Position numbers and translations under genes: made by a program. 22,681 bases of DNA from a virus, in the IMG/VR virus record IMGVR_UViG_3300025120_000609, positions 1 through 22,681 of that record; one strand, written 5' to 3'. The notes beneath the pieces were generated by a model, which did not search any database, was not told where the DNA came from, and worked only from the letters and a program-made list of their open reading frames with translations. Positions 109-3,674 of the stretch are shown here, piece by piece. How positions within the stretch are numbered: position 1 is the first letter of the stretch; each line of letters opens with the position of its first letter.

Positions 109-843
109 TTATATGTACTTAGCTCCATTGCCATGAGCCACAATAGCAATGCTCTTGGCATTGATATCTGAACCACTACATAGCTTACAGCTATCACAGG
201 TAGTACGTCTACCTGCTTCTTCTGATGCAGGACATAATATCTCTTTGCCCTTTACCATTGCATTGACATTGTCAATAACTCTGAATGTTCTAATGCCACT
301 ATCCCATGAAGCCATAGCTTCATCTAGACTGTCGGCACTCTTCATACATAAGTCATATCTTTGATTGACTGACTGATGAGTATAACCTGTTCTACCTTTT
401 GACTTTGCCAATAAGGAATCCCAAACATAAGAAGGGATTGCAGATGGGTCACCATAAGAACCTAGTCGTATGGTTTCATCAAGTCCAAGTTCAGCAACAT
501 CTTTATGTCCTCTGACTCTTGTATAGCCACCCTTCTTGTATGTTTTCCAAACATTCAAAGGTGCTTGATAGATAGCAACATAACAAGCTCTGTCTTTGGC
601 TAACTTCCTATCGGAAGAAGGCTCAACAGCAGTTCCTCTAAGCTTACAGTCTCCACAAATAGAATAGTCCAAGCCAAGCTTATTAGCTTCACGTGGGTCT
701 ATGTCCTTGCAGAGTATCCATGTCTGTATCATGCTACCTGTCTTGCTATTAGCAGAACCTTTTTCAAAGCCTGTTGCAATCATAACAATATCTTGACCAT
801 CAATCATTGATTGACCTTCATATAAAATGTAACCATTAGCCAT
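109..843 (-). CDS. Conserved phage protein with cysteine pairs (DUF7227-like by recall)
   Basis: A 244-residue protein. The start at 843 is supported by TGGAG a few bases upstream. Visible landmarks are Cys45, a CGDC pair (Cys63, Cys66) and a C-terminal cluster (Cys204, Cys216, Cys219, Cys222), which could hold zinc or an Fe-S centre. The stretch around TWILCKDIDPREA and CGDCKLRG, then ACYVAIYQAPLNVWKTYKKG, resembles a widespread phage/plasmid family that I recall as DUF7227, of unknown function; I could not check this. It lies between hairpins A and B in the leftward unit. An enzymatic role is not evident. Confidence 0.85.
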   Translation of the reverse strand: MANGYILYEGQSMIDGQDIVMIATGFEKGSANSKTGSMIQTWILCKDIDPREANKLGLDYSICGDCKLRGTAVEPSSDRKLAKDRACYVAIYQAPLNVWKTYKKGGYTRVRGHKDVAELGLDETIRLGSYGDPSAIPSYVWDSLLAKSKGRTGYTHQSVNQRYDLCMKSADSLDEAMASWDSGIRTFRVIDNVNAMVKGKEILCPASEEAGRRTTCDSCKLCSGSDINAKSIAIVAHGNGAKYI

Positions 844-1427: not shown

Positions 1428-1445
1428 GTCCGACATCGGACTGTT
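1428..1445 (-). repeat. Dyad repeat copy 1 (AACAGTCCGATGTCGGAC)
   Basis: An exact copy of the 18-base word on the minus strand. Its core GTCCGA-TG-TCGGAC is a dyad with 6-base arms and a 2-base centre. It spans the gap between the stop codon of the upstream gene (1444-1446) and the tRNA-Trp 5' end at 1420. A 2-base centre is too short for an RNA loop, so a protein binding site is more likely. Confidence 0.85.
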
Positions 1446-1716
1446 AGTACTCATCGGAGTAAACTTCTCCGAAGTCTTCCCACTCCTGCTCCCATGAAGG
1501 TTGACCATCATCTTCCTCTTCTTCTTCTCCGAAGTTTTCTTCCCACTCCGAAGGAGTTATCCCTGTCTTAATGAACTCTCGTTCATCAGCAGAAAGATGT
1601 GGCATAGCCACTTGGATAAGCTCCCCATCAATCCAAGATTGATATTGGTCAACAGAGACATCAATCTCCATTGAGTTAGTCTTGCCACTAATCATAGATG
1701 TTTTTGTAATCTTCAT
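1444..1716 (-). CDS. Conserved small phage protein with acidic tail
   Basis: A 90-residue protein beginning MKITKTSMISGKTNSMEIDV. The start at 1716 is chosen because AAGGAG stands 7 bases upstream; a longer reading from 1749 would begin inside a dyad repeat and has no ribosome binding site. The middle, with MPHLSADEREFIKTGITP followed by SEW, matches a short protein that I recall from many phages, function unknown. The last 35 residues are strongly acidic (a run of Glu and Asp) with three Trp, which could mimic DNA or mediate protein contacts; this is inference. It is followed by tRNA-Trp. Confidence 0.85.
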   Translation of the reverse strand: MKITKTSMISGKTNSMEIDVSVDQYQSWIDGELIQVAMPHLSADEREFIKTGITPSEWEENFGEEEEEDDGQPSWEQEWEDFGEVYSDEY

Positions 1717-1740
1717 TTGTAAACTCCTTAAGTTTAAAGT

Positions 1741-1758
1741 GTCCGACATCGGACTGTT
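1741..1758 (-). repeat. Dyad repeat copy 2 (AACAGTCCGATGTCGGAC)
   Basis: An exact 18-base copy on the minus strand, inside the 5' leader of the gene starting at 1716 and just after hairpin C in the direction of transcription. Confidence 0.85.
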
Positions 1759-1770
1759 TAAGTTATATAT

Positions 1771-1812
1771 ATAATAAATAATATTTCATTAAAATATTAT
1801 ATTATTTATTAT
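1771..1812 (-). repeat. Intergenic AT hairpin C (divergent-loop member)
   Basis: Perfect 14-bp arms at 1771-1784 and 1799-1812 surround TTCATTAAAATATT. The loop keeps TTCAT but lacks the closing C-G pair and the TTCAA end, so it is the most divergent member. Its upstream flank TTAGTAATATAATAATAAAT (minus strand) is shared with hairpin B. It lies between the genes at 1820-2035 and 1444-1716. Confidence 0.75.
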
Positions 1813-1819
1813 TATATTA

Positions 1820-2035
1820 CTAATTGTTTCTATTGATATGGATTATAAATAATCCTGTCATTAACAAAGTTAATCCCATAGCACCAATCAAACCAATAAA
1901 CATTATTCCCATAGGGAATCCTTGGTTTATTGCTTCACTCATGTAATAACCTTCCTCTTCTGATAAGGTTATCCAAGCCATTAAAGTTACAGGTATTCCT
2001 AAAAGGAATATTAATAATCCATCTAATTTACTCAT
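1820..2035 (-). CDS. Small membrane protein, two transmembrane segments
   Basis: A 71-residue protein starting at 2035, with GGAG about 7 bases upstream. Two hydrophobic stretches (about residues 5-23 and 42-66) are separated by a short acidic loop containing SEEEGYYMSE, so it should span the inner membrane twice. The start lies 1 base from the stop of the gene at 2037-2339, so the two are probably translated together. It is not beside the lysis genes, so a holin role is not favoured. Superinfection exclusion or another early membrane function is possible but unproven. Confidence 0.75.
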   Translation of the reverse strand: MSKLDGLLIFLLGIPVTLMAWITLSEEEGYYMSEAINQGFPMGIMFIGLIGAMGLTLLMTGLFIIHINRNN

Positions 2036-2036
2036 T

Positions 2037-2339
2037 TTAAACTCCGTTTAACATATCATTTAACATCTGAATAGCTTTGCTATTATCAGAGAGTCCGACA
2101 TCGGACTGTTTAACTATGTCTCCATAGTTATTTAATCTTCCATTCTTCAAAGATTCTTTGAACATTTTAGTTTCAAGTTCATTCTTTCTTGAAACATAAA
2201 CTTCCAAAGGCTCATCATGGTCTTTGACCATCTTAATCCAATTACTACGTAATGGCTTATGATTATAATTAGAACCAAAGTTCTTTTTGACATTAGTCTT
2301 GCACCAAATCTTGCCTTTTCGTATTTTGTTACCAACCAT
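2037..2339 (-). CDS. Hypothetical basic protein carrying a dyad repeat in its coding region
   Basis: A 100-residue protein starting at 2339, where AAGGAG precedes the ATG by 7 bases; an upstream in-frame start at 2381 would read through hairpin D and is rejected. The N-terminal half is rich in Lys and Asn (MVGNKIRKGKIW), suggesting nucleic-acid contact, but no known motif is visible. Residues around QSDVGLS are encoded by dyad repeat copy 3. It is followed closely by the two-TM membrane protein. I do not recognise the family. Confidence 0.7.
   Translation of the reverse strand: MVGNKIRKGKIWCKTNVKKNFGSNYNHKPLRSNWIKMVKDHDEPLEVYVSRKNELETKMFKESLKNGRLNNYGDIVKQSDVGLSDNSKAIQMLNDMLNGV
2093..2110 (-). 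repeat. Dyad repeat copy 3, inside a gene
   Basis: An exact 18-base AACAGTCCGATGTCGGAC copy on the minus strand within the gene at 2037-2339, read there as QSDVG. It is in the same reading frame as copy 4 in the next gene upstream. Confidence 0.85.
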
Positions 2340-2353
2340 TTGAAATCTCCTTA

Positions 2354-2408
2354 AGATATATATAATAATTAATACTTTCACAAATTCAAGTATTAATTAT
2401 TTATATCT
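2354..2408 (-). repeat. Intergenic AT hairpin D (conserved-loop family)
   Basis: Inner perfect 11-bp arms lie at 2365-2375 and 2390-2400, with outer 7-bp arms AGATATA/TATATCT at 2354-2360 and 2402-2408. The loop TTTCACAAATTCAA keeps both ends of the family consensus but is 2 bases shorter. The + strand closing pair C-G is kept. It lies directly upstream of the AAGGAG of the gene at 2037-2339. Confidence 0.8.
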
Positions 2409-2439
2409 CTAAATGTTAAAGTTAAAAGATAAAGTAGCA

Positions 2440-3042
2440 TTAAGCTACTTCATCTAATTGAATGTTTTCTTCGATAAGTTCTAGTTGCTCTTTTAAAGCA
2501 ACAAGGAACTCTTCTTTTGAGATACCATTGGTATCTAAAGCTAAGACTGCTTCAAAGGCTATGTCAGAAGCTGTAAGCTTCTTTTGAACCTTTGGTTCTT
2601 CTTTAGCAGACTGTCCGACATCGGACTGTTCAGAAGATTTATCTTCTATTTGAAGAATCTCTTTTTCTTCTGAAGTATCTTCTTGCTTTGGCTTGTTAGC
2701 AAAGTTATAAGCTTTTTGAAGAGCAGACAAAGAGGTAAACCTCTTCTTTGGATTTTTGTTTAACCAAGTAACTATGTTACTATGGTTTGAAAACAACCAC
2801 AAAGCTTCGCTTTTTCTTCTTTTGTCAATGGAATTAATTCCATATTTTAAAGCTAAAGCTTTACTAATCATCTTACTATTTTCAATAGTTAAGATTTGAG
2901 ACTGAAGAGAACCAAGCTGATACTCAAAGCTCTCTGTACTGAAAACCATCTTTGTAGTTTTCGTTCTCAAAGACTTTTGCTCTTTGTGATAAGTTTTAGT
3001 TAAGTTAGAACCGATAGACTGTAGAGTTGAAATGTTAGTCAT
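2440..3042 (-). CDS. Hypothetical helical protein, first gene of the leftward unit
   Basis: A 200-residue protein starting at 3042, with AAAGGA upstream on the minus strand. It is Lys/Ser/Glu-rich and mostly helical in character, with a central segment (SKALALKYGINSIDKRRKSE then LNKNPKKRFTSLSALQKAY) that could form a small DNA-binding domain, an acidic linker, and a C-terminal helix rich in Leu and Glu. The linker includes QSDVG encoded by dyad repeat copy 4. As the promoter-proximal leftward gene it may be an early regulator, but that is inference from position; I do not recognise the family. Confidence 0.75.
   Translation of the reverse strand: MTNISTLQSIGSNLTKTYHKEQKSLRTKTTKMVFSTESFEYQLGSLQSQILTIENSKMISKALALKYGINSIDKRRKSEALWLFSNHSNIVTWLNKNPKKRFTSLSALQKAYNFANKPKQEDTSEEKEILQIEDKSSEQSDVGQSAKEEPKVQKKLTASDIAFEAVLALDTNGISKEEFLVALKEQLELIEENIQLDEVA
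2613..2630 (-). repeat. Dyad repeat copy 4, inside a gene
   Basis: An exact 18-base copy on the minus strand inside the acidic linker of the gene at 2440-3042, encoding QSDVG. It is immediately followed by CAGTCTGC, so Q and S codons repeat around it. Confidence 0.85.
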
Positions 3043-3065
3043 TTATTTTCCTTTAAGTTATATTA

Positions 3066-3114
3066 ATTAAATTTAAACATCTTTCATATACATTCAAGAT
3101 GCTTTAAATTTAAT
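3066..3114 (-). repeat. Intergenic AT hairpin E (conserved-loop family)
   Basis: Left arm 3066-3081 pairs with 3098-3114 over 16 bp, with a single bulged C at about 3102. The loop TTTCATATACATTCAA is identical to that of hairpin B, while the arms (ATTAAATTTAAACATC type) are unrelated in sequence. It lies in the leader of the gene at 2440-3042, overlapping the start region of the leftward promoter candidate. Confidence 0.8.
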
Positions 3115-3141
3115 ATATAACTAATATGTTTCGATTGTCAA
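3112..3141 (-). promoter_or_regulatory. Leftward sigma70-like promoter candidate
   Basis: On the minus strand, TTGACA (3141-3136) is followed after 18 bases by TATATT (3117-3112). Transcription would start near 3105 and enter hairpin E at once. The -35 box is perfect and the -10 box matches five of six bases. It is the best leftward promoter I can see for the genes at 3042 and below. Confidence 0.55.
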
Positions 3142-3201
3142 GTGGCATCAATAGACTTTGTCGAAGTAAGTATCGACTATGTTTATTTAAGATTACTTCA
3201 A

Positions 3202-3219
3202 CAGTCCGATGTCGGACAC
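3202..3219 (+). repeat. Dyad repeat copy 5, opposite orientation
   Basis: The word reads AACAGTCCGATGTCGGAC on the plus strand (positions about 3200-3217 including flank), unlike copies 1-4, which read this way on the minus strand. It is the only copy in the non-coding control region, upstream of the leftward promoter candidate. Confidence 0.8.
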
Positions 3220-3392: not shown

Positions 3393-3471
3393 GAACTTGG
3401 GAAGAAGTCTTCAAATCTATGACAAAAGTCTCTTTGAGATGAGAACTCTAGGCAAATCAGCACCCTAGGCA

Positions 3472-3492
3472 GGGGTCGGTGGGGGGTAGGGG
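3472..3492 (+). other. G-rich tract in AT-rich control region
   Basis: Runs of 4, 2, 6 and 4 G are separated by 1-3 bases, within a genome where G runs above 3 are scarce. The pattern could fold as a G-quadruplex or mark a replication or packaging signal. None of these is proven by the sequence. Confidence 0.45.
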
Positions 3493-3591
3493 TTATATAT
3501 GTATGTATATCTACACAGATTAGGTAAATTGACTGTTAACTACAGTAGAAACTGTGAATACATATATGTACAAGCACAGTTAAATAAAGTG

Positions 3592-3645: not shown

Positions 3646-3674
3646 TTGACACGATTGGTAATTAGTGGTATAAC
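3646..3674 (+). promoter_or_regulatory. Rightward sigma70 promoter P2
   Basis: A perfect TTGACA (3646-3651), a 17-base spacer and TATAAC (3669-3674), exactly 54 bases downstream of P1. Transcription would start near 3681, just before the array at 3690-3776. The promoter before the capsid gene uses the same TTGACA and TATAAC boxes. Confidence 0.75.

Follow-up and report, generated by a model that had tools for sequence, protein, structure and literature searches.

The 18-base dyad word AACAGTCCGATGTCGGAC, together with the first gene of the early operon through which it is scattered, points to a previously unrecognised DNA-binding regulator with its set of control sites in HMO-2011-type marine podoviruses. 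In the reading preferred here, to which a probability of about 60% may be given, the dyads are dispersed operators read by the product of this gene (gene 1), whose binding would repress or block the early operon. The gene-1 product is very probably the cognate binder because its residue 106 follows the type of the dyad arms, while repression or blocking is suggested by the position of the sites and by the parallel with the stoperators of phage L5. The window, that is, the whole stretch of 22,681 nucleotides that was analysed (positions 1 to 22,681 of IMG/VR record IMGVR_UViG_3300025120_000609), is a fragment of an HMO-2011-type podovirus, as its large terminase is 80.9% identical to that of HMO-2011; its leftward arm is early, and genes for terminase, portal and capsid occupy the rightward one. 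A published account calls phages of this type dominant and widespread in the ocean (PMC9038755), and the literature searched on them mentions no repressor or promoter. For these phages there is now a candidate regulator of the early genes, along with its sites and the code by which it would recognise them.

A search of the whole window with a tolerance of up to three mismatches found five exact copies of AACAGTCCGATGTCGGAC (Table 1), exactly where a sequence-only reading of this DNA had placed them, and one additional match, which is the 1428 copy read in reverse; the mean expected from 100 dinucleotide shuffles is 0.00. The core GTCCGANNTCGGAC also occurs in five exact copies, with none in the rightward arm. 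The same reading had seen four of the five copies follow transcription, and indeed four are oriented with the leftward transcripts and one is opposed. The copies at 2093 and 2613 both lie within genes, the former 58 nt ahead of the next start codon. A close relative (G004) has a sixth copy, after the gene orthologous to window 109-843, in a place that falls beyond the left end of the window. A gene for tRNA-Trp (CCA) at 1347-1420, within the leftward early arm, adjoins one dyad copy.

Table 1. Dyad copies, gene 1 and promoter candidates, in window coordinates
Feature	Position	Strand	Remarks
Dyad copy 1	3200..3217	+	Exact 18-mer; upstream of the early promoter candidate; reversed relative to the early operon
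Dyad copy 2	2613..2630	-	Exact 18-mer; within gene 1, coding for the linker motif SDVG
Dyad copy 3	2093..2110	-	Exact 18-mer; close to the 3′ end of gene 2037-2381
Dyad copy 4	1741..1758	-	Exact 18-mer; 5′ leader, 25 nt ahead of the start of gene 1444-1725
Dyad copy 5	1428..1445	-	Exact 18-mer; 3 nt past the stop of gene 1444-1725, just upstream of tRNA-Trp
Gene 1, first of the early operon	2440..3042	-	200-aa candidate cognate regulator, from covariation and co-occurrence
Predicted recognition helix, residues 105-116 (LSALQKAYNFAN)	2695..2730	-	Helix in both AF2 models
Ser106 codon	2725-2727	-	In the predicted recognition helix
Early promoter candidate, TTGACA-N18-TATATT	3112..3141	-	About 100 nt upstream of gene 1; sigma-70-like, strong
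Divergent (late operon) promoter candidate, TTGACA-N17-TATAAC	3646..3674	+	Conserved on the opposite strand in relatives

The first contigs of relatives were found in IMG/VR by exact search with the 18-mer and hold three to six copies each; 80 IMG/VR loci were then fetched with the gene-1 protein as bait. Over 77 of these 80, with the pattern GTCC(A/G)-N4-(T/C)GGAC and the early side counted from 600 bp upstream of gene 1 onward, the early side holds 366 sites in 305.7 kb, where dinucleotide shuffles predict 0.2, and the late side none in 209.5 kb. Wherever a locus extends more than 3.5 kb past the gene-1 start, as 47 do, it carries four to seven copies. The typical places are about -175 to -300 from gene 1, about +400 within gene 1, and the downstream gene junctions, and the copy inside the gene is kept in relatives with its reading frame unchanged. 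This count of the word across relatives, a check which the sequence-only reading had named, reveals neither even scatter nor a lack of conservation. Among 50,697 phage records, the isolates with gene 1 are CRP-1, CRP-345 and HMO-2011, and these are also the isolates read that have dyad sets, located mainly in the early arm and formed as GTCCAA-N2-TTGGAC in CRP-1 and CRP-345 and as GTCCG-N4-CGGAC in HMO-2011. Six other isolates showed no dyad set in the stretches read (the first 12 kb of five CRP phages, and 20.8 kb of MW202701). The system does not simply go with a temperate lifestyle, because CRP-2, CRP-3, CRP-207 and CRP-603 have an integrase and lack the dyad set in the stretches read; no gene-1 relatives were found in bacterial genomes, which thus give no prophage support. 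Single copies in two GC-rich contigs (G005/G006, or L010/L011) were regarded as chance. The word GTCCAAGGTTGGAC in the integrase genes of CRP-1, CRP-345, G002 and G003 was not counted as a site; it encodes the protein sequence LSKVG and is mismatched to the arm type of the genome in G002 and G003.

Arm type is usually common to all copies within one genome. When L058, L060 and L062 are compared with the window, every aligned dyad shows A for G at arm position 5 and T for C at position 10, within flanks that are up to 54/54 identical, the 2093 copy being unaligned for L058 and L060. Such joint change of the copies implies a reader acting in trans. In L074, the arms are CCCC..GGGG in the in-gene copy and in one downstream copy, and partly so in two more. 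Another contig, L012 (sites at 234, 725, 1830 and 3113), has one GTCCGA dyad as well as three GTCCAA dyads and possibly records a switch in progress; it is without gene 1, and residue 106 is unreadable there. What is conserved in the dyad is the base identity of the arms and not the centre, which is a pyrimidine-purine step in 255 of 268 sites. The orientation read from this step (TG:CA) is 112:29 for downstream copies (43:10 as votes per genome) and 34:4 for in-gene copies, and the promoter-upstream copy has no orientation bias overall but is mostly reversed in clade-I flanks (6/7). Pairing of the flanks at -1/+1 and -3/+3 is enriched yet lineage-structured, and is not decisive between a DNA and an RNA site.

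The gene-1 protein changes with the arms. In a first comparison of 54 gene-1 proteins with the arm type of their genomes, 51 of which have a uniform type, residue 106 is Thr with A:T arms (GTCCA/TGGAC) in 34/34 cases and Ser or Lys with G:C arms (GTCCG/CGGAC) in 17/17. From a second fetch came 49 more proteins, each below 97% identity to the first set; of these, 48 fit: 44 are Thr/A:T, one (L216, SSLTALK, A:T) was placed by eye, and three are Ser/G:C, including L171 and L205, which are the contigs G001 and G002 met earlier; Ser cases are few in this set, which counts mainly through its lack of Thr/G:C pairs. The one exception, L152, has Ser106 yet A:T sites, and it carries Arg110 and Arg113. 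Hybrid arms (GTCCG..TGGAC) pair with hybrid helices, Ser106 with Arg or Lys113 (L085, L093 and L094), and the helix of L152 (Ser106 with Arg113) is likewise of this hybrid kind. On a tree built without helix 105-116 and without the dyad-encoded linker, arm type and residue 106 each change 13 times, and among independent pairs 10 of 11 co-change and none opposes (p = 0.002). Residues 106 and 113 are the best predictors of arm type, at 99% and 95% against a baseline of 80%. Residue 141 covaries perfectly with arm type and was excluded because the dyad itself encodes it.

Models from AF2, with an alignment made of the fetched IMG/VR loci, give gene 1 an all-helical domain (pLDDT 94.6), where residues 106, 110 and 113 follow one another at i, i+4, i+7 along a high-confidence predicted helix. 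This domain has no structure match in PDB at E<0.001 and matches no known DNA-binding fold, a point against the operator reading, and profile searches of Pfam, NCBIfam and PDB sequences gave no hit of note; in PHROGs, only a few gene-1 members match, weakly, and mostly to families without function. DNA-binding proteins would gain a fold if this predicted domain is borne out. The odds of a wider proposal may be put as even: the gene-1 protein would represent a new family of sequence-specific DNA-binding proteins, whose all-helical domain resembles no solved structure and which would direct the early transcription of HMO-2011-type phages from the scattered dyads; helix residues 106, 110 and 113 would set its specificity, and hybrid protein/site pairs would record the change of operator type. 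A switch of one residue and one base pair, with many independent events and hybrid intermediates, makes the evolution of operator specificity directly testable.

In the operator reading, a homodimer of the gene-1 product would bind the palindrome in double-stranded DNA, and each subunit would set helix 105-116 against arm position 5, Thr106 with A:T and Ser106 or Lys106 with G:C; the pyrimidine-purine centre would provide the flexible step of the site. Each version of the protein, that of the window on one side and that of L058 or CRP-1 on the other, would prefer its own site type, GTCCGATGTCGGAC or GTCCAATGTTGGAC. Occupancy upstream of the early promoter and at the co-oriented sites in gene 1 and at the junctions would lessen initiation, block elongation, or both, and the outcome would be an autoregulated shut-off of the early operon, or a silencing of the prophage in the manner of stoperators. 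Judged by this parallel, the protein most likely regulates its own operon, the early one, as a repressor or a roadblock. Against the reading it counts that a lysogeny repressor would not usually be encoded first in a strong early operon. Repressor, roadblock and activator look alike at the level of sequence. TTGACA boxes stand at -78 to -123 in several relatives, and L058 has a perfect TTGACA-N16-TATAAT. A G-rich tract, GGGGTCGGTGGGGGGTAGGGG, occupies 3470-3495 between the divergent promoter candidates. Since dyad copy 1 is upstream of the early promoter candidate, it should lie outside the early transcript.

That position bears on the possibility that the dyads act as RNA, as hairpins of the early transcripts in nut/put-like antitermination or in mRNA processing, perhaps with the gene-1 protein as an antiterminator like lambda N. 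Most transcribed copies share a single orientation, and their hybrid arms are always G..T, which is compatible with G-U pairing, and never A..C; both features would be unexpected for a purely symmetric DNA dimer if RNA polymerase were indifferent to orientation, and they can reflect either a stoperator-like orientation dependence or a role at the transcript level. Gene 1 is first in the early operon and has an Arg-rich stretch (IDRRRR), and, as with HK022 put and lambda nut, short hairpin-forming words stand in early transcripts near the first gene. A two-hairpin element was suggested by the first 46 sites, 27 of which have a variable hairpin 2-10 nt upstream against 7.5 expected; it was dropped after the larger set gave a weaker excess (73/225 against 40) and similar stems downstream. 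The transcribed copies could pair, but one conserved copy, mostly reversed in the clade-I flanks, sits beyond the promoter candidate, and a second hairpin is not a general feature. Unlike put and nut, the dyads have no conserved loop, and no boxA was seen; the identity of the stem bases is conserved and switches together with a protein residue, a covariation that points to DNA. The put RNAs of HK022 differ further in being about 70 nt long, with two long stem-loops, in occurring twice per genome and in acting independently of protein (PMC9378689). An Rfam scan found the tRNA only and nothing at the dyads, which also counts against an RNA element. Altogether the arm base identity, the pyrimidine-purine centre and the reversed copy upstream of the promoter favour a DNA site, and a role of the dyads as RNA is unlikely.

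A positive factor, with the gene-1 protein at DNA sites aiding RNA polymerase by Q-like antitermination or activating internal promoters, is about as unlikely as an RNA role. It would suit the first place of gene 1 in the operon, and also the copies that precede the promoter or adjoin promoter-like AT-rich intergenic elements in the orientation of transcription; however, copies in coding linkers and near gene starts fit roadblocks at least equally well, and the analysis showed no terminators that would require antitermination. The AT-rich elements form a second intergenic repeat on the minus strand (60-110, 870-920, 1765-1815, 2356-2406 and 3058-3118), an inverted repeat with a variable stem and the conserved loop CTTGAA(T/A)...TGAAAG. 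It contains boxes like TTGAA(T/A)-N17-TATAAC, in relatives often stands 20-60 nt upstream of a dyad, and may be an internal promoter, a terminator or a processing site. Several palindrome copies near the gene of their putative binder could also be partition or chromosome-organising sites of the ParB/parS kind, but this is very improbable: with the window itself being a fragment, a ParA-type ATPase (PF13614) was sought in four relatives, two of them near full length, and not found, while 14/14 control genomes were positive, and both the transcription-linked orientation and the confinement to the transcribed early arm would be unexpected. A small mobile palindrome or selfish repeat without a regulator, which the sequence-only reading had also offered and which an exact multicopy repeat with some copies in coding linkers, in one reading frame, might suggest, is hardly tenable and is refuted unless the covariation is coincidental, as the places are conserved in distant relatives, the late side has no copies, and all copies switch arms in concert with the protein residue.

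The operator reading is close to the other suggestion of that note, binding sites of a phage regulator after the L5 stoperators, which is well supported by the early-arm confinement, conservation, orientation, uniform arm type and residue co-switch; a replication protein as binder, its other proposal, is without support, and the binder that it left unnamed is, on these data, very probably the gene-1 product. The covariation of residue and site expected of a phage operator and its cognate dyad-binding regulator is found here. L5-type stoperators are a dispersed word of 13-14 bp at the promoter and gene junctions, mostly in one orientation relative to transcription and with a known orientation dependence, and their lineage-specific variants track the regulator (PMC6550527, PMC9283540). 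The dyads resemble these Cluster A sites as a short word dispersed at junctions and promoter, mostly oriented with transcription, with variants tracking the candidate regulator. They differ in number and spread (four to seven copies in the early arm only, against 20-30 genome-wide in L5) and in form, being dyads whose arms change together, whereas the L5 site is an asymmetric 13-bp word bound by a monomer. The candidate binder also differs in being the first early gene and in having no detected relationship to an HTH family or to PDB entries; homology to the HTH repressor gp71 of L5, judged indirectly by searches of Pfam, NCBIfam, PHROGs and PDB, was undetected. Hence the dyad system is not an L5 system by membership, and would be L5-like in its working if the proposed repression holds. 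Operators of the lambda CI type share with it a palindrome near the early promoter and a presumed dimer with a specificity-setting helix, but they form one clustered region, whereas the dyads are scattered through operon and coding sequence, and no sequence relation of gene 1 to known repressor families was detected. Because the CRP-1 early gene gp06 (L048:2783-3187) belongs to the Pfam family Phage_L5_gp82, HMO-2011-type phages and L5-type mycobacteriophages share at least one early gene family. The early gene at window 109-843 belongs to phrog_2554, of unknown function, with relatives in phages of Mycobacterium, Gordonia, Klebsiella and Roseobacter.
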